Positions 4,103-61,270 of a stretch of DNA of 64,000 nt are shown in pieces. The DNA comes from Lachnospiraceae bacterium (GTDB taxonomy: Bacteria; Bacillota_A; Clostridia; Lachnospirales; Lachnospiraceae), in the NCBI GenBank assembly GCA_021770615.1, contig JAETQR010000002.1, forward strand, positions 1 through 64,000, in the 5' to 3' direction. The notes under the pieces were generated by a model. It saw only the letters and a program-made list of their open reading frames with translations. It searched no databases and was not told the origin of the DNA. The first letter of the stretch is position 1. Every line of letters begins with the position of its first letter. A program made the position numbers and the translations under genes.

Positions 4103-4415
4103 ATCAACACAGCACGGAAATCAATTTTCGGCGCTCGCAATTCATAAGAATAGTGACCTTTGTACAACAGGCGAAAAATATTTCCTGATGAGGACCGTAT
4201 AAACGTGTCGGTCCTTAGGCTGCGTACAAGGTGCTACGCACAAGGTGTGATTTTTACACCAGGTACGTTTGCACCTTGCAGCCTTTGTACCGCTACATGT
4301 TTATTTTAAGCGCAAGCGGGTTCTCATCAGGAAATATTTTTCGCCTGTTGTACAAAATTTAGTCAGTTTTCTATGAATTGCGAGCGCCGAAAATTGATTT
4401 CCGTATCAACACAGC
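4103..4415. mobile_element. MITE-like palindromic element with 11-bp target-site duplication
   Basis: A 291-base element (4114-4404) begins ACGGAAATCAATTTTCGG and ends with its reverse complement. The terminal arms are about 75 bases and nearly perfect, and the interior is again palindromic (for example GTACAACAGGCG near both ends, and CAAGGTG/CACCTTG). It is flanked by the direct repeat ATCAACACAGC at 4103-4113 and 4405-4415, the pattern left by transposition with an 11-bp duplication. It has no transposase gene, so any mobility must be in trans. The right copy of the duplication contains the sigH stop codon. This element fills most of the gap between tRNA-Thr and sigH. Confidence 0.75.
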
Positions 4416-13848: not shown

Positions 13849-14247
13849 CTACTTTTTACAAATAAAATTATCCACCAGATCAATAAGAAGCCTTGCCGTC
13901 TGAATCTGACTTTTCGTTTCCTCTTTACCTGCTATATAAAAATCATCATAATCACTCGCATGTCTGACCTTTGCCGCTTTTGATATACTTCTTCCTATTT
14001 CTTTAGGAAATATACCAGTATGAACATAATTTTTATTAAAATACCCAATCGTATCTTTATGTTTTTTAAAAGCAATTGGTTCTAAACATAATACCGCTGT
14101 CAATGAATAATAAATCGAATAATATGCCCTGTTATTTGCCGCCTTTAACTTATCATTATTAAAAAGAAGTTCCGCAGTACTAAATTCCTCTTTGGCCCTC
14201 TCTAATTTATACTTTGCCAAATCCCTTCCATAAAACTCCTGCTTCAT
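13849..14247 (-). CDS. HEPN-domain protein of a HEPN/MNT toxin-antitoxin pair
   Basis: This 132-residue all-helical HEPN protein of the COG1895/DUF86-like type has NNRAYYSIYYSLTAVL (about 39-54), the internal helix FKKHKDTIGYFNKNYV, and RHASDYDDFY near 95-104, the charged helix of this family. In known pairs the HEPN partner is an RNase toxin that the nucleotidyltransferase inactivates by AMP addition near the HEPN site. Its ATG overlaps the MNT stop by four bases. The region is AT-rich compared with neighbours, which suggests acquisition. Confidence 0.82.
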   Translation of the reverse strand: MKQEFYGRDLAKYKLERAKEEFSTAELLFNNDKLKAANNRAYYSIYYSLTAVLCLEPIAFKKHKDTIGYFNKNYVHTGIFPKEIGRSISKAAKVRHASDYDDFYIAGKEETKSQIQTARLLIDLVDNFICKK

Positions 14248-14573
14248 ACCGCCACCCCGTCTTTTTCAATATCCATAAAGAAAGGATATACTTTCTTCCA
14301 CTGATCGTAAATCTGTATACTTTGAACAGCGGGATTTATCACTATTTCATACCGCATTTCAAAATCATATGTGATATCATAAATTTTGTCTGCATAGGCG
14401 CTTACCTCTTCCGGTTGTATCTCCGCCAGTATCATGATATCTATATCTGATTCCTGTGTAAAATCTCCTCTGGCATAAGAACCATACAAAATTATTCTTT
14501 TTAACCGCTTATCTAAAATCTGCGTAACAGCCTCCCGGTATTTCTCCAATAAACGAGATAAATCACTTGACAT
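14244..14573 (-). CDS. MNT-type nucleotidyltransferase (antitoxin of HEPN/MNT pair)
   Basis: This 109-residue minimal nucleotidyltransferase has the catalytic motif LYGSYARGDFTQESDIDIMIL (about 30-50): GS-x10-D-x-D, with a third acidic residue farther on. It precedes and overlaps the HEPN gene. By analogy with MntA/HepT it would adenylylate the HEPN partner and act as antitoxin. It is complete. The upstream side is bordered by the first of two large palindromes. Confidence 0.85.
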   Translation of the reverse strand: MSSDLSRLLEKYREAVTQILDKRLKRIILYGSYARGDFTQESDIDIMILAEIQPEEVSAYADKIYDITYDFEMRYEIVINPAVQSIQIYDQWKKVYPFFMDIEKDGVAV

Positions 14574-14629
14574 TTTATATCACCACCTTTTGAATATTGT
14601 ATCATATTCCTTTTTGAATATCCATAATT

Positions 14630-14880
14630 TCCTTTTCGTTTGTGTTCAGAATGAGAATACTGATGTCGATTCCATATTTCCGGAGAGCGGATTTTCACGC
14701 ATGGGCGCTTACGCTCAATAAATACGCAACGGTATGGGTGCGCAAAAGTGCAAAAACACGCACTGTATACGCGCACCTCATACCGGCGCATTTATAACCC
14801 ATGCTTTGAAAATCCGCTCTCCGGAAATACTACAATCGACAAATCAGTCTTCTTTGCCTCTGATACGAAAGGACGATTTA
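14630..14880. repeat. Large nested palindromic repeat, family P copy 1
   Basis: A near-complete inverted repeat. CCGGAGAGCGGATTTTC (14680-14696) pairs with its exact complement at 14808-14824. Inside it nest GCATGGG/CCCATGC, ATAAATACGC/GCGCATTTAT, GGTATG/CATACC and AAGTGC/GCACT. Weaker pairing continues outward to about 14630 and 14880. The core is shared with the element near 43.8 kb, while the 17-bp outer stem differs. It has no coding frame of note. Confidence 0.8.
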
Positions 14881-14910
14881 CAGCAGGTGATCCAGCGGCA
14901 CCTTTCCAGG

Positions 14911-15066
14911 CTTGCAGTATTTCAGAAAGAAAGGCTCTCAGCGCATGGAGTTGTAAGTACGCTGGTAAGAGGCGCGGGGATGTGCATACTTTGCACATCC
15001 CCACGCCCTTACCACTGCGTAACTTACATAGCGCAAGCGCTCCATGCACGAGAGCCTTTCTTTCTT
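14911..15066. repeat. Large nested palindromic repeat, family P copy 2, at carboxypeptidase stop
   Basis: The arm AAGAAAGGCTCTC pairs with GAGAGCCTTTCTT, then GCATGGAG/CTCCATGC, GTAAGT/ACTTAC, GGTAAG/CTTACC and an apical GGGGATGTGCA/TGCACATCCCC hairpin. It begins CTTGCAGTATTTC, the end motif also seen in the element near 43.8 kb. The right arm touches the stop codon of the M14 carboxypeptidase, and the T-rich end could terminate that transcript. With copy 1 it fills the 490-base gap 14574-15064. Confidence 0.78.
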
Positions 15067-16777
15067 ACCTTGCATACTCCCCCACAAACCACGTCAAAAG
15101 CTCCGTATTCTCTCTGGTGATCTTTTTTAATTGGGAGTGCGGAAGCGGGCACATGACAGACCCTGTCTCTACTGTCACATTCGGAATCTTTTTATTATAG
15201 ATCAGCCAGTCACCAAAGCCCCCATTGGGATCCGTACTGATGGATTTCGGCATCAGACGGTATCTGGTAAACGAATTCACTTTTGCGGCAAGCTGTCTCT
15301 GCCTTTCATACAGAGCAGGCGTCCCCTCTACATTATAATTCCAGTAAAGGATACTCCCGGTCGAGTGGTAATTTAATGCCCCCCTGACACCAGACAGGCT
15401 GTTGATAAAGGACATCATGACCTTTGTTTCTTTTTCTGACGCTGCTTTTTTCCCGGGATAAGAACTCCCATCCGGTTTCTTGGATTTATTATCCTGATTC
15501 CATCCTCCCGGAAAATTAAAGTTCAGATTAACCCCCCTCGCATTTGCTTTCCATGTACGGGCGGAAGCCTTCGTTTTCTGACATAATTTCCTCAACTTCT
15601 CAGAACGGATCGCATCAAAACCATACTGGGAGATTGTAACTCCATCCGGATTGATCATCGGCACAACATAAAGGCACGTACTCTTTAGTGTCCCCTTATA
15701 CTCTGTATACTGACGAAGTATTTCCTCACATTTGTGTACGATCATAAGCGGATTCATCCACTCTCTTGCATGAATCCCTGCATCGATCACAATTTTCTTT
15801 CCCGCAGACGGATTCCCTACACGCAGGCACCAGATCGTCCTTCCATCTTCACTGCTTCCGAGGCTTTTCAGCGAAGCCTTCCCTCTGTATTTCCATGCAA
15901 TATTTTTCAAATCCCTTGTCAAATCCTCATAGCTGTAAATACGATCCTTCTCATTTACGATCCATGGCTCCTCCTTCACGGTAACTCTCGCCTTGACAAT
16001 ATTACGACTCGACTTTTTCACCTGTGCAAGTATAACCGCTGTTCCTTTTTTTCTGGCAGTGACCACCCCGTTTTTATTTACTTTAGCCACCTTGGGATTT
16101 GAGGAGACAAAACGGATATTTTTATATGGATAATTATATTTCAATCTCGTACTTTTTCCCTGATAAACCACCTGCGAGGACGGGCTTTTGGTATAGAGCC
16201 CGGGGGCAAAATACACATACACATAAATCCTCTCTCCCGTGTCCTTTGCTGTGATCTGAACGATCGCATACTGTTTTTTATCTCTGGCCTTGTCAGTACA
16301 GGTTATTGTACCATTTGCAGATACTTTGATCTTCCCCGATGAAATATCTTTTTTGCTGACTCCTCCTGTTATTTTAAATGTAGAACGTTTTGTAGGAAGA
16401 AGCCTGACCGGGTCAGACACATAAGTATTGATGTGGTATAATTTCCCCTTTTTTACCTTTCCATACCGGATTCCCTTTTGTCCCCCGGAAAAAAAACGTG
16501 CCCCTTTGTTTTTGATCGTCAGAGGAGCTTCTTTCTTTCTGCTTTCCGGTTGATCCGTCTGCATTGGCTGCTGTAAGAATGCCGGAACCTGCGTCTGCAA
16601 AGGGTTTCCTGTCTGTCCCGGATCCTGCAGAACGCCAGAAGCTCCTCCCGACACAGCTGCCCCCGTCATCCCGGATATCCTTGCTGAATCATCCTGCATC
16701 TTCCCATCGGCTTCCACGCAGACAACATAAAATAAACTGAAACAGATAAGAACAACACTAATACATTTTTTCTTCAA
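15065..16777 (-). CDS. Secreted M14 zinc carboxypeptidase with Ig-like domain
   Basis: An exported peptidase of about 570 residues. Order: a signal peptide (KKKCISVVLICFSLFYVVCVEA), a low-complexity Gln/Pro/Ser region, Ig-like Big_2 repeats (about 90-280, ending VSSNPKVAKVNKNGVVTARKKGTAVILA), then an M14 domain. Zinc ligands are visible in IDAGIHAREWM (HxxE) and LNYHSTGS, the substrate site in NPDG, and the catalytic Glu in NVTVETGS. It would release C-terminal residues from peptides, possibly cell-wall peptides, outside the cell. The GGGGGG ribosome site favours a TTG at 16777; a GTG at 16795 is the alternative. Confidence 0.87.
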   Translation of the reverse strand: MKKKCISVVLICFSLFYVVCVEADGKMQDDSARISGMTGAAVSGGASGVLQDPGQTGNPLQTQVPAFLQQPMQTDQPESRKKEAPLTIKNKGARFFSGGQKGIRYGKVKKGKLYHINTYVSDPVRLLPTKRSTFKITGGVSKKDISSGKIKVSANGTITCTDKARDKKQYAIVQITAKDTGERIYVYVYFAPGLYTKSPSSQVVYQGKSTRLKYNYPYKNIRFVSSNPKVAKVNKNGVVTARKKGTAVILAQVKKSSRNIVKARVTVKEEPWIVNEKDRIYSYEDLTRDLKNIAWKYRGKASLKSLGSSEDGRTIWCLRVGNPSAGKKIVIDAGIHAREWMNPLMIVHKCEEILRQYTEYKGTLKSTCLYVVPMINPDGVTISQYGFDAIRSEKLRKLCQKTKASARTWKANARGVNLNFNFPGGWNQDNKSKKPDGSSYPGKKAASEKETKVMMSFINSLSGVRGALNYHSTGSILYWNYNVEGTPALYERQRQLAAKVNSFTRYRLMPKSISTDPNGGFGDWLIYNKKIPNVTVETGSVMCPLPHSQLKKITRENTELLTWFVGEYAR

Positions 16778-16832
16778 TGTAACCAATCCCCCCACATTTC
16801 TATATATATGTCCTTAATATCCTCATTATCCC

Positions 16833-18326: not shown

Positions 18327-20495
18327 TTAGTTAGACTTCGTATAATGACAGTTCACCCATTCCTGCTCGTTTTTAATCAGAGTAATATGATAGTCTTCGA
18401 TTCCTTTTACAATCCTTCCTTCCGCTTTATAACCGCCCTCCGAAAGATAATACAAATTATCCTTGCCCGCACTGGCTATCGTAGTAAACTCATCCCCGCC
18501 GTATTCTGCCTCAGCAATCCCTTTCTCTGTCGCTATTATGATACTGTTTCCCTTTGTTCCCAGGGCAATCCCCGCGAGTTCTCCTTCTTTGTATGGCACA
18601 CCAGCATCCAGCACATACCCGTTTTGCCCGCTCTCATCGAACACCTTTACCTCGATCCTTCCACTATCCTGATTCGCCTCTGCCCAGCACACAAAATCAT
18701 CCCCTGACTCGATCCTCGTAAATGCGCTCTTTGGGACTTTGATCTCAGCCACTTCCTCTCCGGTAGAACCACTATACACAGCAGAAATGCCGCCATAATT
18801 ATAGATAAGATAATTCCCATCGGCAAACACCACATAATCATTAAAAACAAGCCCCTTTTCATATCCTGTTTCAGAATCATCCGGAAACACCTTATCCCAG
18901 TCCTCCGATGGGACTTTTAAGTCAGTCACCTCACCTGTCTCCTCATTTACCCGGAAAAAGTACTGCGCAGTGAGATACAGATTATCCTCATCAAAGGCCT
19001 CTTCATAGTATTTATCAGGAAACTCATGGATCACAAGATACAAAAAGCCATCCGGGCCATAAAATCCATCTGCCAGTTCCAGCTTTTTGCCTTTCAATAA
19101 TTTCTCACATTCCTTTTCCCACGTTATCTCTGCCTTCTGCCACTCACCATCCACAAATTCTACTTTGACCCAGGAGTCAATACTTCTTTTTCCATTTTCA
19201 CCAAATGCATACAATGTGCCAAACTGCACAAGCTTTCCTTCCGGATCCACCGTCGTGTTCTGCAAGTTGACAGTTGTATCCACATCTTTCCCCCAGTCGA
19301 TCTTCTCTTCCGGCATCGTCTGCTCCACATAGACAGCTTCTTCCTCTTTTTCCGGCTGCGGTTTTGCTGTCTCTTCCGGCACAGATGAAATCCCACACCC
19401 GCAAAGAGCCACTGCTAAAACTGCCAGCGCTGTTATGATTTTTGTCGGTTTTTTATATTTCATGACACCACGTATCCTTTCATTCACTGCCCCCGCTCCA
19501 AATGCGGCATTGGAACATAGGATATGATTTTCACCACTCGCCATCGCCAAAAGAAGATACGAATACCTCTTTTTGGCTTTGTTCCCTAACTTCCGGACAA
19601 CTGCCTCATCGCAGGAAACCTCCATATCCCTCATCATGAGCCGGTATGCCACCCACACTAACGGGTTAAACCACAATATCGAGAGCACAAGAAATACAAA
19701 CGGTTTTACCCTGTAATCCCGACGTTTTATATGAGTCCTCTCATGAACAAGAATACATTCCAGATCCGCCTCGCTCATTCCCTTTGGTACATATATTTTA
19801 GGGGAAATAATACCACCCACAAACGAACTGCATACATAGGGATGTTCATACACGTTTTCAAACAAAGGGACCGCATGACGGAACATTTTTTGGTTCATCC
19901 GGAGGGAGCAGACCAGATAAAGAACACAAAACAATACCCCGGCAAGCCAGATCATAAAAATGATGTCACCGGCACCGACTATCCTGCTTCCTTTTTCCAC
20001 TGCGCTCGCTACATTTCCCTGTGAATTCTGTAACGCACTGGCCTGTCCGCTTCCTGATGTCATCCCAGAGACCGTTCCCGACAGCGTTTCCTCCGTCCCT
20101 GCTTTTCCTGCATCGCTCTGTTTCTCCAGCAGAACTTTTCCCGTTTTCAGGCGGTAGGCATTCTGAATGCCCCCATATTTCCCGTCTTCTGTCAGCTTCG
20201 CCAACCGTTTACTAAGCTGCTCCGGCCGGATACTCTGTCTGGTCTGTGCCACCGTCTGTCCGACACGCTCCGGAAACAATTCGTAGATTCCACTCACAGA
20301 AAACGGACAGATCATCCTGACCACCATAAAAAGCCATAGCAGATACATCCCGATCCTTGGCAGGCGTTTCATAAACGGACGGATCAGAAGAAAGAACACG
20401 ATCACTGCTGATACAGACAGGCAAAGTCCCCATAGGTAATCCAGTACGGTATGCTCTGAAATGATCTTCACTGCGTTTCCGATCCATTCTCTCAT
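18327..20495 (-). CDS. M56 (BlaR1/MecR1-like) membrane metalloprotease sensor, copy 1
   Basis: 722 residues. The N-terminal half has transmembrane helices (about 22-40, 48-64, 178-198, 262-286) and the protease site ILVHERTHIKRRDY (HExxH at 251-255), with ...RDMEVSCDEAVVRKLG as third-ligand region. After KPTKIITALAVLAVALCGCG (about 353-372) the C-terminal 350 residues are outside the cell. They are not the penicillin-binding domain of BlaR1 (no SxxK) but a repeated Trp/Tyr/Gly-rich beta fold resembling a propeller, with blades ending FADGNYLIYNYGG and the like. It likely senses an external signal and cleaves the BlaI repressor. It starts one base after the blaI-like stop, so it is translationally coupled. 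Confidence 0.85.
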   Translation of the reverse strand: MREWIGNAVKIISEHTVLDYLWGLCLSVSAVIVFFLLIRPFMKRLPRIGMYLLWLFMVVRMICPFSVSGIYELFPERVGQTVAQTRQSIRPEQLSKRLAKLTEDGKYGGIQNAYRLKTGKVLLEKQSDAGKAGTEETLSGTVSGMTSGSGQASALQNSQGNVASAVEKGSRIVGAGDIIFMIWLAGVLFCVLYLVCSLRMNQKMFRHAVPLFENVYEHPYVCSSFVGGIISPKIYVPKGMSEADLECILVHERTHIKRRDYRVKPFVFLVLSILWFNPLVWVAYRLMMRDMEVSCDEAVVRKLGNKAKKRYSYLLLAMASGENHILCSNAAFGAGAVNERIRGVMKYKKPTKIITALAVLAVALCGCGISSVPEETAKPQPEKEEEAVYVEQTMPEEKIDWGKDVDTTVNLQNTTVDPEGKLVQFGTLYAFGENGKRSIDSWVKVEFVDGEWQKAEITWEKECEKLLKGKKLELADGFYGPDGFLYLVIHEFPDKYYEEAFDEDNLYLTAQYFFRVNEETGEVTDLKVPSEDWDKVFPDDSETGYEKGLVFNDYVVFADGNYLIYNYGGISAVYSGSTGEEVAEIKVPKSAFTRIESGDDFVCWAEANQDSGRIEVKVFDESGQNGYVLDAGVPYKEGELAGIALGTKGNSIIIATEKGIAEAEYGGDEFTTIASAGKDNLYYLSEGGYKAEGRIVKGIEDYHITLIKNEQEWVNCHYTKSN

Positions 20496-43769: not shown

Positions 43770-43960
43770 ATTGTTTGATCGGTTCCGTATTTCAGAAAAA
43801 ATGGTTTTCACGCATGGGCGCTCCCGCTTTATAAATACGCAGCGGTATGGGCATGGAAAAGTGCAAAAACATGCACTTCTCCACACCTCATACCGGCGCA
43901 TTTATAACCCATGCTTTGAAAACCATTTCTTCTGAAATACTGCAAGCGATAAAACTGATG
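43770..43960. repeat. Large nested palindromic repeat, family P copy 3
   Basis: TCAGAAAAAATGGTTTTC (43792-43809) pairs with GAAAACCATTTCTTCTGA (43918-43935). Inside are the same nested core pairs as in the 14.7 kb copy: GCATGGG/CCCATGC, ATAAATACGC/GCGCATTTAT, GGTATG/CATACC and AAGTGC/GCACTT. The right end carries CTTGCAGTATTTC (reverse strand). It separates the GH18 gene start from the 3' end of the restriction-modification operon and fills most of the gap 43623-44007. Confidence 0.82.
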
Positions 43961-44007: not shown

Positions 44008-44730
44008 TTATATCTTATAACACCCTTGTTCTATGTATTCTCCAACACCATCTATCAATTCCTGCAAAAATGATATGATAAATGTTGAATACTTTTCAAA
44101 ATCCTGTATGCCATCATCTCTCACTGCATCTGTAAACGACACCGCACCATGCGCAAGACTATTTCTGTTGTTTTTTATATTATCTAAAATATCAGGTCTA
44201 AAATTAGGGCTGCTCGTTTTTATACGAAATCCATGCGATTCAAACGTCTCTTTTATAGAGTGACCATCTAAATTCCCCGCCGGCAAAGATTCCCTGGCTT
44301 TAATAACCAGTGTACCTTTTGATAGTATACAATTAATTATTTCCTCATTTTTCTTGAGAAATGTGTTAAAATTTGCTCCCGGATCCCTTGCCGCCTTTAA
44401 AACAGTTTTTCTCCACAGTGTCCTAATTGATTCGTTGACATCAACATATGATAAGCCTTGCACTTTAATCTCATCATATATGCAATCTATAAGCCCTGAG
44501 ACTGTATATTCAATAATATTATACATCATCAAAGACAAATTTGACTTGAGTATATTTATTAACTCTTGATATGATAAACTTACCTTTTTATCACCACAAT
44601 GAAAAAATTCTTCAAAGGAAATTTCATCCTCATCAACTGCCATTTCTTTTTGTTCTAAAAACTTCATTAATTGGATAAATTTTTGAATTTCTATTTTTCT
44701 ATTTTCATATGTGTCTTTTAATGCAATCAT
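44008..44730 (-). CDS. HEPN-type protein of the MAE_28990/MAE_18760 kind
   Basis: 240 residues, mostly helical. Near the C-terminal end RNSLAH (189-194) is the RxxxxH motif of HEPN ribonucleases, in the context KNNRNSLAHGAVSF typical of the MAE_28990 group that is often encoded next to DUF262 proteins in restriction islands. The gene directly follows the DUF262 gene (no gap) at the end of the operon. A role as an RNase effector of defence is inferred. Confidence 0.72.
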   Translation of the reverse strand: MIALKDTYENRKIEIQKFIQLMKFLEQKEMAVDEDEISFEEFFHCGDKKVSLSYQELINILKSNLSLMMYNIIEYTVSGLIDCIYDEIKVQGLSYVDVNESIRTLWRKTVLKAARDPGANFNTFLKKNEEIINCILSKGTLVIKARESLPAGNLDGHSIKETFESHGFRIKTSSPNFRPDILDNIKNNRNSLAHGAVSFTDAVRDDGIQDFEKYSTFIISFLQELIDGVGEYIEQGCYKI

Positions 44731-45804
44731 TTACTCTCCCAACAATTTATTTTTCACAAAATCAATACGTTTTTTCAACTTTGTCTTATTATTAGCGGCA
44801 TCTGATTTAGTGATAGCCGAAAATTCCTCTTCGTCTATCCATGTTGTATCAGACACTTCTAAATCAGGTCGTATTTGCAATGCTAACGATATACCAACTG
44901 CAATTGCTTCAAAACGAGCCCTTGGTGTAAATTTTGATTGTGGTTTCTTTCTAAATCCCTTCTTACCTAAACAACGCTCTGCAAAATTTAACATATCTTG
45001 AAAACGTTTTTCATATTCCTTTTCCAAATTTTCTTCTTCCCAGCGCTTATTCATCATTTCAATATATTTATCAATATATTTGGCAACCTCACCAGAATAT
45101 CCAGGAAAATCATCATGATAATTATCTGAATACGCAAAAAATCGTGATACTAATTCAAACCCCTCATATCGTTTCTCCGTTTGCTCACTTCTAGGGGCTA
45201 ATTCATTAAATCGGGAGTTTTTTGTACAAGCTGTTAAAAACGTCATAAAAGGTCCATTTATAGATCCTCTCCTCGTCTCAGCAGGCAATGCCATTCGCCC
45301 TCCTGTATTTATTCTTTTAAAAATCTCTTGTCTGACATTTTCTGTTGTTCCTTCTTCCAAAAACACAACTCTAATATTGGTATTTTCAAATTTTCTTTGA
45401 ATCGCAGGATCTAGTTGTCCAAAGGAAAATCCATTAGAGGCTGTTAACATTTCTAACCCCTGCAACACTAAATCCCCCTGCAAAAATTCTATTAACGTCT
45501 GTGTTCTCTGTGCTCCATCCACAATTTCAATTCTTCCATCCTTCGTATCCGAAAAAAACATAAATGGAATTGGCAAGCCCATTAATACCGATTCAATAAA
45601 AAAACACTTATCTGTATCACTCCATATAAAATTTCTTTGATAATCCAAGGGAACATACAGATTACCGTTTTCGAACATTTGCTTTAAATAACCAATTACA
45701 TAATCACGTGTATCGTACTTTATATCTTGTTTCTTTTCAGTTATCTGCTGTGAAGATTCCAAAATCTCCTCTTCCACTTTTTTTACATTTCCTTTCTTTG
45801 TCAT
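44731..45804 (-). CDS. DUF262 (GmrS/ParB-like) domain protein
   Basis: About 357 residues. The N-terminal DUF262 domain is clear: LYVPLDYQRNFIWS (about 50-63), then the nucleotide-binding-type IVDGAQRTQTLIEFL (about 92-106; DGxQR) and later KRINTGG. The C-terminal part is helical and without a visible DUF1524 HNH nuclease domain, so it is not a full GmrSD. The ATG at 45804 has GGAAGGTGG upstream; the gene start overlaps the end of the methylase by 68 bases in another frame. With the HEPN gene it may form the restriction or sensing part of a defence module. Confidence 0.82.
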   Translation of the reverse strand: MTKKGNVKKVEEEILESSQQITEKKQDIKYDTRDYVIGYLKQMFENGNLYVPLDYQRNFIWSDTDKCFFIESVLMGLPIPFMFFSDTKDGRIEIVDGAQRTQTLIEFLQGDLVLQGLEMLTASNGFSFGQLDPAIQRKFENTNIRVVFLEEGTTENVRQEIFKRINTGGRMALPAETRRGSINGPFMTFLTACTKNSRFNELAPRSEQTEKRYEGFELVSRFFAYSDNYHDDFPGYSGEVAKYIDKYIEMMNKRWEEENLEKEYEKRFQDMLNFAERCLGKKGFRKKPQSKFTPRARFEAIAVGISLALQIRPDLEVSDTTWIDEEEFSAITKSDAANNKTKLKKRIDFVKNKLLGE

Positions 45805-46864
45805 AATTGCCACCTTCCGTATTTTCTATGTGCTTCTGTATACTAATTCCTATAGCGTACCCTAACTCAACAGGAACCGCATTTCCTATATGAATACCCA
45901 ATTCCCGTTTTTGAAATGGATGTTCATCATCCGCAAATATATAATCATCAGGAAAAGACTGCAAAATGGCTCCCTCTCGAAGAGAAAGAGCTCTATTTTG
46001 CTCCGGATGCCCAAACCGTCCGTTTCCGTAACCATAAAATTGCGTCGTAATCGTCGGAGACGGCTCATCCCATTTCATTCTTCCATATACCGATGGATAT
46101 GTAGTTCCCGTTCTTTTGCTATGACACATTAACCTTAACTCTTCATCCCAATCCCTCCAAGTTCCACCAGGAACTGATTGTTCAATTCTTTTTTTATTCA
46201 AATCAGATAACTTACTAGCTCTATGCAAACTATCCGTTTTACACACCTGTCCATCAGTTATAGGAGGTAATTCACCAATCGCCATCCTTACCGTTTTATA
46301 TTCCTTTTTTTTATATAATGGTGGGATAAGCTGGATTGACCCAAGTCTAGATGCCAACAAAACCAATCTTTTTCTTTTTTGCGGAACCCCATAATCTGGG
46401 CAAAAAACAACTTTCCAATCCACATGATAATCCAATGCTCTTAATTGCTGAACAAAATCATCAAAAACTTTCTCATTCGCTAAACTCGGGACATTTTCCA
46501 TTGATACAATGTCCGGAACACATTCTCTCACTATTCTTGAAAAAGAATATAACAACTTCCATTTATCATCTTTTCTTCCATGCTTTCTATATCTTAATGA
46601 ATATCTGGAAAATGGCTGGCATGGTGCACAGCCAACAATCATTCTTATTGCATCCTTAGGGAAAAAACGAATGATTTCTTCTGCTGTAACATCGCTAACA
46701 TCCTTAGCAATAAATTTTGCATCATTGTTACTTTCATAAGCAAATTTACAACCTTCATCAATATCAAATCCAGCGGCAACATCTATACCTGAAAGTGAAA
46801 GTCCCTTTGTAAGTCCCCCGATTCCACAAAACAAATCTACAGCAACATTAGGCACAACACTCAC
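45737..46864 (-). CDS. DNA (cytosine-5) methyltransferase 1
   Basis: 375 residues. Motif I DLFCGIGGLTKGL (10-22), motif IV GCAPCQPFSRYS with the catalytic Cys82, motif VI ENVPSL, motif VIII PQKRKRLVLLAS and motif X GNAVP near the C-terminus are all present. The end extends about 30 residues past the family norm over the DUF262 start (GGNYDKERKCKKSGRGDFG). Its ATG overlaps the vsr stop by four bases. Target sequence cannot be read from the motifs. Confidence 0.95.
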   Translation of the reverse strand: MSVVPNVAVDLFCGIGGLTKGLSLSGIDVAAGFDIDEGCKFAYESNNDAKFIAKDVSDVTAEEIIRFFPKDAIRMIVGCAPCQPFSRYSLRYRKHGRKDDKWKLLYSFSRIVRECVPDIVSMENVPSLANEKVFDDFVQQLRALDYHVDWKVVFCPDYGVPQKRKRLVLLASRLGSIQLIPPLYKKKEYKTVRMAIGELPPITDGQVCKTDSLHRASKLSDLNKKRIEQSVPGGTWRDWDEELRLMCHSKRTGTTYPSVYGRMKWDEPSPTITTQFYGYGNGRFGHPEQNRALSLREGAILQSFPDDYIFADDEHPFQKRELGIHIGNAVPVELGYAIGISIQKHIENTEGGNYDKERKCKKSGRGDFGIFTADN

Positions 46865-47295
46865 CTCTCTTCCATTTTACATTCAAAAACAGCTTCTTCT
46901 ATCGTTTGAATACATATATCCGTATGTTTCCTAATATCTTCTTCCCAAAAACGCAGTACAGTAAAACCTTGAAACAATAGTTGCTTATTTACCTCATCAT
47001 CATGCTCTCTGTTTCGTTCAATCTTCTTAATCCAGTATTCTCCATTATCTCCCCTTTCAAGCCTTCTTCTTAATTTTTCCCAATCTTTTCCATGAAAGAA
47101 ATCACCATCACAAAATATAGCTATCTTATATTTTGTTAAAACAATATCAGGAGACCCCGGGAGTTTTTTATAATTTTTCCTATAGTGATATCCTTTTTTC
47201 CACAAAGACTTTCGTAGCAACTGCTCAATAGATGTATTCTTTCCTTTAATTCTTTGCATATTTTTTCTTCTTTGCTCCTTTGTCAAGACATCCAT
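46861..47295 (-). CDS. vsr: Very short patch repair (Vsr) endonuclease
   Basis: 144 residues. The Vsr pattern is clear: TKEQRRKNMQRIKGKNTSIE (start), PGSPDIVLTKYKIAIFCDGDFFHGKDW (metal-binding Asp and His) and the later FQGFTVLRFWEEDI. It nicks at T:G mismatches created when 5-methylcytosine deaminates, so it protects against mutations caused by the partner methylases. GGAGGTG and ATG at 47295 set the start. Between methylase 1 and the putative endonuclease. Confidence 0.93.
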   Translation of the reverse strand: MDVLTKEQRRKNMQRIKGKNTSIEQLLRKSLWKKGYHYRKNYKKLPGSPDIVLTKYKIAIFCDGDFFHGKDWEKLRRRLERGDNGEYWIKKIERNREHDDEVNKQLLFQGFTVLRFWEEDIRKHTDICIQTIEEAVFECKMEER

Positions 47296-47322
47296 CAGCA
47301 ATCACCTCCATAATGTACTAAT

Positions 47323-49635: not shown

Positions 49636-49712
49636 CAGTATCAAAAAAAGTTCTCCTGCATACCTCACCAAGCGCAACCGCTCCATGCAAGAGAACTTTC
49701 TTCTAAAATTAC
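49636..49712 (-). terminator. Short family P repeat acting as terminator of the rnf operon
   Basis: AAAGTTCTC (minus strand) pairs with GAGAACTTT and runs into TTTTTTT; inside, TGCAT/ATGCA pair. The sequence AGCGCAACCGCTCCATGCA closely matches AGCGCAAGCGCTCCATGCA in the 15.0 kb palindrome, and GCAGTAT lies at its end. It looks like an internally deleted copy reused as a terminator. Confidence 0.72.
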
Positions 49713-49734
49713 ATTAACTATAAAACCACTTCTG

Positions 49735-61009: not shown

Positions 61010-61270
61010 CGTAATATCATGATACCGGGGGCAAAAGCCCTTTTTATCAAAGAGTCTGGCAATATGCACAAAAAACAATAAGATGAGCAGCATTATGCAC
61101 AATGAAACTGAGACTCAGAGAATCGTGGAAGCCTTTGCTGAACACGATTCCCACGTTTGAGGCTCAGTGGAATGGTTCGTGCATCCGGCTGCGAAGATAT
61201 TGTTTTTTGTGCATATTGCCAATACATGAAAAAACAAAGGGCTTTTGCCCCCGGCATCATATCATTTGGG
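61010..61270. repeat. Giant nested palindrome in a divergent promoter region
   Basis: CCGGGGGCAAAAGCCCTTT (61025-61043) is exactly mirrored at 61236-61254. Inside, GGCAATATGCACAAAAAACA pairs with its complement near 61200-61220, and then a central part with ACTGAG/CTCAGT-type pairing and CGTGGGAATCGTG/CACGATTCCCACG. Pairing extends outwards to about 61010 and 61270. It is not followed by a gene end, since YfhO and fabF both start beside it. With the fabF leader it fills the gap 60984-61438. Confidence 0.82.

Follow-up and report, generated by a model that had tools for sequence, protein, structure and literature searches.

A palindromic repeat with copy-specific, self-complementary arms around a conserved three-way-junction core in gut bacteria

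Results

Copies in the Window

The window analyzed here, 64,000 nucleotides of contig JAETQR010000002.1, contains copies of a long palindromic repeat, designated H1 to H4, and a possible further copy, H5. The copies were scored with two covariance models. R1 was built from 18 copies and has 35 pairs, 19 of them with two-sided changes. R2 is broader and was built from the 78 copies of alignment A2, chosen by hand out of 131 core candidates, with spurious and near-duplicate ones omitted. The strand given for each copy below is the one with the GNRA side hairpin, and z refers to RNA folding.

4104..4112, left 9-bp target duplication of H1, identical to 4406-4414
4113..4405, (+) strand, copy H1 of subfamily A, 293 bp long with its terminal inverted repeats; fold z -21.2
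4406..4414, right 9-bp target duplication of H1, identical to 4104-4112
14665..14840, (-) strand, copy H2; -99.7 kcal/mol, fold z -14.8; R1 E 6.7e-28, R2 E 6.2e-21 (in both training sets)
14681..14691, variable outer-stem block of H2, left arm; partner 14813-14823, 11/11 complementary
14697..14806, (-) strand, conserved core of H2, with the side hairpin at 14705-14714 and a variable apical stem; alignments A1 and A2
14813..14823, variable outer-stem block of H2, right arm; partner 14681-14691
14910..15085, (+) strand, copy H3; fold z -14.0; R1 E 6.3e-24, R2 E 3.6e-16 (in both training sets)
43776..43951, (-) strand, copy H4; -84.6 kcal/mol, fold z -12.7; R1 E 3e-31, R2 E 1.8e-20 (in both training sets)
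43794..43804, variable outer-stem block of H4, left arm; partner 43923-43933, 10/11 complementary
43923..43933, variable outer-stem block of H4, right arm; partner 43794-43804
49640..49715, (+) strand, H5, possible degenerate or deleted copy, a short hairpin with a GNRA-like side hairpin, recognized by eye

Since 0/200 shuffles folded as well as H2 or H4, and given their z values, these two hairpins are not chance structures. H1 lies outside both training alignments and was still matched by both models (R1 E 1.2e-9, R2 E 3.5e-16). H5 reached an E value of only 1.8 with R1, which is not significant, and is absent from the R2 matches.

H3 is inverted relative to H2, lies 100 bases away from it, and is located at the stop codon of a carboxypeptidase-like ORF (15065-16795). 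Two small ORFs at 13849-14573 resemble, by eye, a nucleotidyltransferase/HEPN toxin-antitoxin pair. These ORFs, H2 and H3 occupy a segment next to tRNA-Leu of which the relatives aligned there have almost nothing (about 50 bp in G285, the sole relative measured). The ORFs at 44008-47301, adjoining H4, may form a defence island; by eye, they resemble a very-short-patch-repair-type endonuclease, a C5 methylase and a DUF262-like protein.

The original prediction compared the copies near 14.7 and 43.8 kb, and the inner core pairs that it described as common to both (GCATGGG/CCCATGC, GGTATG/CATACC) are borne out by direct reading. A gapless alignment of H2 and H4 gives 81% over the left 99 nt and 87% over the right 70 nt. 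The outer stems had been called unrelated, which is overstated, as identical segments (TATTTC / TTTTCACGCATGGG and TTTGAAAA / GAAATACT) flank the variable block; an 11-nt block in each arm does differ. The outer stem was also said to pair with its own partner, and it does so at 11/11 positions of the H2 block and 10/11 of the H4 block. Between the two copies, six pairs of this block are changed on both sides, one on one side, and four are unchanged. The observation on these two copies is confirmed; its scope had been understated.

Architecture of the Repeat

The outermost part of the repeat is a variable outer stem. It leads to a three-way junction, from which a side hairpin of 2 bp branches off, and on through a helix to an apical stem, likewise variable, that ends in a small loop. 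The matched outer arm has a median length of 43 bp, and the inner helix of the core carries a two-base bulge and a 1x1 mismatch. On one strand, the side hairpin reads GC-GNRA-GC in 104/105 distinct copies, a count to be read with the copy finder in mind, which favored that pattern and a pyrimidine there, and on whose output R2, scoring the position loosely, was trained. Among the 104, the third GNRA base is A in 49 and G in 55, and in a few copies covariation extends to the pairs closing the GNRA loop. Of the two strands, the GNRA strand has the more stable fold in 105/126 copies, by a mean of 5.3 kcal/mol, to which the tetraloop bonus of the energy model contributes. Because the GNRA-loop columns share only weak mutual information with other columns (at most 0.14 bits), we claim no tertiary loop-receptor contact.

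A GTAG/GCAG motif at the foot of the inner hairpin is conserved but variable, with C as its third base in 33/105 copies and A as its last base in 19/105. In one subfamily-A copy (L148), a repeat of about 14 bp has expanded several times inside the apical part, which suggests slippage in the apical stem.

Distribution

The exact core 20-mer was found in six contig stretches of two metagenome-assembled genomes, labelled Roseburia sp. and Eubacterium sp., and BLAST gave 17 and 3 matches in them, respectively. Window DNA is 81-85% identical to the Roseburia sp. genome over parts of one region. As Roseburia belongs to the Lachnospiraceae, the family searched is presumably this one. With R1, 62 matches were obtained at E 0.1 in the Roseburia sp. 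genome, at least 8 of which are opposite-strand echoes of places already counted, and 43/250 genomes of the family were matched. The original prediction was to fall if other copies were absent, and many were found: at E 0.001, R2 detected the core in 154/397 sampled genomes of this one family. Copy numbers per genome are lower bounds, to be read as "at least". In the phylum sample, R2 at the same threshold detected the core in 4/398 genomes. These four include the reference genome G209 and a genome that the family sample had already yielded, and a third is likewise present in the family sample. As judged from these sampled sequences, the repeat appears to be mainly confined to one family of gut bacteria.

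Against Rfam 15, only tRNAs in the window exceeded the gathering score, and the element matched no family. Lax scans of window positions 14600-15100 and seven loci gave below-threshold matches only, nearly all to miRNA families. A literature search by titles and abstracts found no description of this repeat, and a plasmid search with the H2 core gave no match. A viral origin was also considered. Three exact-pattern scans of viral contigs returned 0, 7 and 3 contigs; the 10 loci of the latter two had no R2 match, and four of them, when folded, formed no such hairpin. A viral origin was rejected on this basis, within the scope of these three scans.

Covariation of the Arms

The arm symmetry described for the window copies is real in other genomes as well: each copy's arms pair with each other and not with the arms of other copies. 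In G209 (n = 11), a copy's own arms are 85% complementary (minimum 75%), whereas between copies the left arms are 56% alike, compared with 53% for shuffled letters and 77% for the cores. This comparison covers 11 of the 12 copies, the one at C13:162320 not having been recovered by the arm finder. The corresponding values in G237 (n = 7) are 82% for own arms, 57% for arms between copies, 51% for shuffled letters and 81% for cores. Arms in the young subfamily A of G001 (n = 16) are still 72-76% alike between copies, so their divergence is graded and depends on age.

Across A2, 93.5% of the cells are paired, compared with 72.3% after shuffling, and 314 cells are changed on both sides, compared with 98.1 in the shuffles. 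Slid structures gave at most 42.1% paired cells, and their covariation score did not exceed 0.161 (0.596 for the unslid structure). Unsupervised mutual information placed 24 of the 25 top column pairs on one nested hairpin, 11 of them in the given structure and 13 outside it.

RNA-level selection should favor G.U over A.C, an expectation drawn from ordinary RNAs rather than from control RNAs of the same genomes. Read on the GNRA strand, 17 helix pairs in 105 copies comprise 1675 Watson-Crick pairs, 14 G.U, 35 A.C and 61 others. The arms, read on the same strand, contain 122 G.U and 159 A.C, i.e., no preference for G.U; these counts come from 110 distinct arms of 126 after five spurious ones had been dropped, with duplicates and poor arm alignments omitted.

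Covariation is usually taken as proof of a selected RNA structure, and in covariation scans a palindromic repeat can be mistaken for a conserved RNA structure. Because the stems here show strong covariation and hardly any wobble intermediates, orthologous copies allow a mutational copying process to be separated from selection.

Orthologous Copies

Over an 18-kb stretch, G288 and G209 share about 94% identity, and 9/12 of the G209 copies have an orthologous copy in G288. At L292/L283, flanks and core correspond, the core differing by three substitutions and one single-base indel in about 80 bases, while both arms are different yet self-complementary, at about 5% flank divergence. Both arms have been rewritten here around a conserved core. 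In three further pairs (L057/L275, L276/L277 and L295/L293) parts of both arms have changed together, and the remaining five pairs differ little.

Over the hairpin pairs of all nine orthologous copies, 412 are unchanged, 27 are changed on both sides and still paired, and 4 are changed on both sides and broken; one-sided changes number 49 (21 still paired, 28 broken), and 9 positions are gapped. About 11.4 two-sided changes of any kind are expected if the arms change independently. Thus, paired double change is enriched and one-sided change is common. The original prediction had named copies with one arm changed and the other unchanged as contrary evidence, and such changes do occur; since they exceed the paired two-sided ones (49 vs 27), the arms drift out of register. 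Compared with the flanks, a 112-nt core window has diverged less in 6/9 orthologous pairs and more in 3/9.

The original prediction offered two sources for the symmetry, selection on a long hairpin or a process that copies one arm from the other. The conserved core, the GNRA rule and the column correlations support the former. The rewriting of both arms at L292/L283 and the small number of wobble intermediates support the latter.

Mobility and Deletion Derivatives

H1 is absent at the orthologous site in 8/8 relatives, and the loci fetched there contain no model match. The matches to the two flanks overlap in seven of them, by 9-14 bp; the eighth has a gap of 74 bp between them, corresponding to about 350 bp of the window. 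In subfamily A, 16-bp terminal inverted repeats can be paired in 12 copies, with up to 4 mismatches. Among 13 rows, the flanking 9-mers are at least 7/9 identical in 7/12 copies with both ends, three of them exactly, compared with a mean of 0.6 and a maximum of 5 in a shuffled control, and the duplication is unclear in 6/13 rows. The empty H1 sites and the 9-bp duplications together indicate that subfamily A inserts as a unit with both arms. Movement of the whole unit with 9-bp target duplications is therefore supported as a reading of these sequences, and the figures concern subfamily A, not the subfamily of H2 and H4. In G001, the subfamily-A end matches 119 places with at most 3 mismatches (control 19). 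No transposase with matching ends was recognized by eye among the ORFs of nine loci.

Core-less derivatives that retain the ends occur as 136-bp and 47-bp copies (L186, L195). At L262/L296, 287 bp present in G209 are absent from G288, without a duplication, through either an insertion or a loss. In the ilvN-ilvC spacer, the element is present in G209 only, among 30 fetched loci, and the spacer of G288 contains a mini-hairpin that corresponds to the outermost arm ends of the element. This mini-hairpin is best read as a putative deletion remnant.

Genomic Surroundings

Surroundings were counted at 57 loci; 8 gave no element with the finder used. With respect to called genes, 47/57 loci are intergenic, and several lie directly at stop codons. 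The strand relative to neighboring genes shows no preference (30 vs 26 of 57), and a T5 run occurs within 12 nt of 6/192 arm ends, compared with 7 at as many random positions. Close non-tandem pairs, H2/H3 included, are inverted in one relative orientation in 14/15 cases (sign test p about 0.001, for copies that are not independent). In one genome, G112 (L065, L236, L241), tandem head-to-tail arrays with a spacing of 148-187 bp occur, unlike the usual inverted pairs.

The 442 ORFs of at least 120 aa around the elements were clustered, and no recurrent neighbor of the element was found among them. The largest cluster, ABC-transporter-like by eye, covers seven loci; it was considered as a partner protein and set aside, as it looks like ordinary paralogy.

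Discussion

We propose that the element is a non-autonomous mobile palindromic repeat with an RNA-like three-way-junction core, the arms of which are kept symmetric by template switching together with selection for the hairpin. We assign this account a probability of about 0.5. Subfamily A inserts as a whole, and a DDE-type transposase supplied in trans would presumably move it; the duplications are seen directly, and the transposase is postulated. After insertion, the arms would change fast. A mutation in one arm would tend to reach the opposite arm as well, and the simplest route would be a template switch inside the hairpin as it is replicated. The asymmetric core would be preserved by selection for a complete hairpin with an RNA-like core, as the GNRA rule and the conserved unpaired bases suggest, whatever function the hairpin may have. 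Several observations stand against this account: no transposase with matching ends was recognized at the nine loci, 6/13 rows lack a clear duplication, G.U is not favored in the arms, the core is more diverged than the flanks in 3/9 orthologous pairs, one-sided changes outnumber paired two-sided ones (49 vs 27), and there is no preference for a gene strand.

The element shares with MITEs its short, non-coding, intergenic and multi-copy nature, and subfamily A has terminal inverted repeats, 9-bp duplications and internal-deletion derivatives. It is unlike them in being palindromic as a whole, with copy-specific arms, and in having a conserved internal asymmetric three-way-junction core common to subfamilies with different ends. 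It could be that the copies are functionless MITE relics whose arms are corrected by intra-hairpin template switching and whose cores are alike because the copies are young. The deletion derivatives (136 bp, 47 bp and the arm ends in the G288 spacer), the lack of a recurrent neighbor or orientation, and the missing G.U preference fit such relics. We nevertheless regard this as unlikely, since correction alone should erase conserved asymmetric bulges and should not enforce GNRA in 104/105 copies; the core window is also less diverged than the flanks in 6/9 pairs, and 9/12 of the G209 copies have a G288 orthologue. A structured RNA under ordinary selection would change by stepwise compensatory substitution and need no copying process. 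The GNRA rule, the covarying helices and the greater stability of the GNRA strand (105/126 copies, mean 5.3 kcal/mol, partly the tetraloop bonus) are what such an RNA would display, but G.U intermediates are nearly absent (14 cells), the arms have no G.U excess, whole arms are rewritten at about 5% flank divergence at L292/L283, and the orientation to genes is unbiased, which makes this reading quite improbable.

REP and BIME repeats, palindromes tagged with GTAG or CGTC, resemble the element in their covarying stems, inverted pairs, intergenic location and GTAG-like foot, as far as the portion of PMC3733652 drawn on here describes them. The same portion gives REP sub-families with alternative complementary stem residues, and stems of mostly 6-9 bp. 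The outer arm here has a median of 43 bp, there is a side hairpin of GNRA type, and one subfamily has target duplications; the invariant GTAG or CGTC tag of REP/BIME is lacking, as the motif varies. Transposition of a REP/BIME-like repeat by a Y1 tyrosine transposase (RAYT), with single-stranded hairpins as the moving form, would account for the conserved GTAG/GCAG foot, the covarying stems and the single relative orientation of 14/15 non-tandem inverted pairs, which BIMEs share according to that portion of PMC3733652. Such an origin is nonetheless very doubtful: the tag varies (third base C in 33/105, last base A in 19/105), the elements are several times longer, and subfamily A has 9-bp target duplications. 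To our knowledge, Y1 transposition makes no target duplications.

Insertion of a conserved core into the loops of existing hairpins, with outer stems that are pre-existing target arms, would explain why arms differ by copy and why a small hairpin occupies the G288 ilvN-ilvC spacer where G209 has the element. We consider this highly improbable. H1 entered with both arms, 8/8 relatives having no palindromic element at the site; the G288 hairpin consists of the outermost arm ends, as after a deletion, and the other 28 fetched spacer loci have no element; and in H2 and H4 conserved termini lie outside the variable block. Hardly any weight can be given to intrinsic transcription terminators, which the intergenic position of 47/57 loci, several directly at stop codons, might suggest, but which the T5 count at arm ends (6/192 vs 7 at random) disfavors.

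In the best account, a carrier of a familiar kind, the MITE-like repeat, bears an RNA-like core and is subject to a known mutational process at an unusual scale. The original prediction held that no described element has this property, which is not supported in that form, and two precedents limit the novelty: the REP stem sub-families (PMC3733652) and compensatory stem changes by template switching (PMC8794818), each as far as the part of the source used here goes. In that part of Monttinen and Loytynoja (2022, PMC8794818), template switching makes and repairs stems, with multi-base compensatory changes in single events. Their hairpins resemble the present ones in that one copying event explains such changes; they lie in microRNA and rRNA genes, whereas here a bacterial mobile repeat would be affected at the scale of whole arms, by a copying step that we infer. 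Fremin and Bhatt (2021, PMC8040213), in the portion considered, report 250 palindromic RNA candidates on both strands in the human microbiome, 20 of them not terminator-like; the examples named there are from Bacteroidetes.

A more far-reaching view, that the repeat represents a new class of mobile structured-RNA element in which stems are rewritten as a unit, arm from arm, around a constant GNRA three-way junction, is put forward tentatively, as something we find possible rather than probable. If it is true, hairpin symmetry would be made by replication and only then used by selection, and template-switch stem evolution would become directly measurable. The repeat itself adds a widespread, apparently undescribed component to common gut-bacterial genomes.

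Two other features of the window were observed. A further long hairpin with AT-rich arms lies at 61058-61220 (H6; -95.6 to -103.8 kcal/mol in the scanned pieces), and it is a different type of palindrome, as neither R1 nor R2 matches it. The segments at 18327-20495 and about 21-23.1 kb are diverged tandem paralogues, BlaR1/M56-like by eye, with 74-77% DNA identity.
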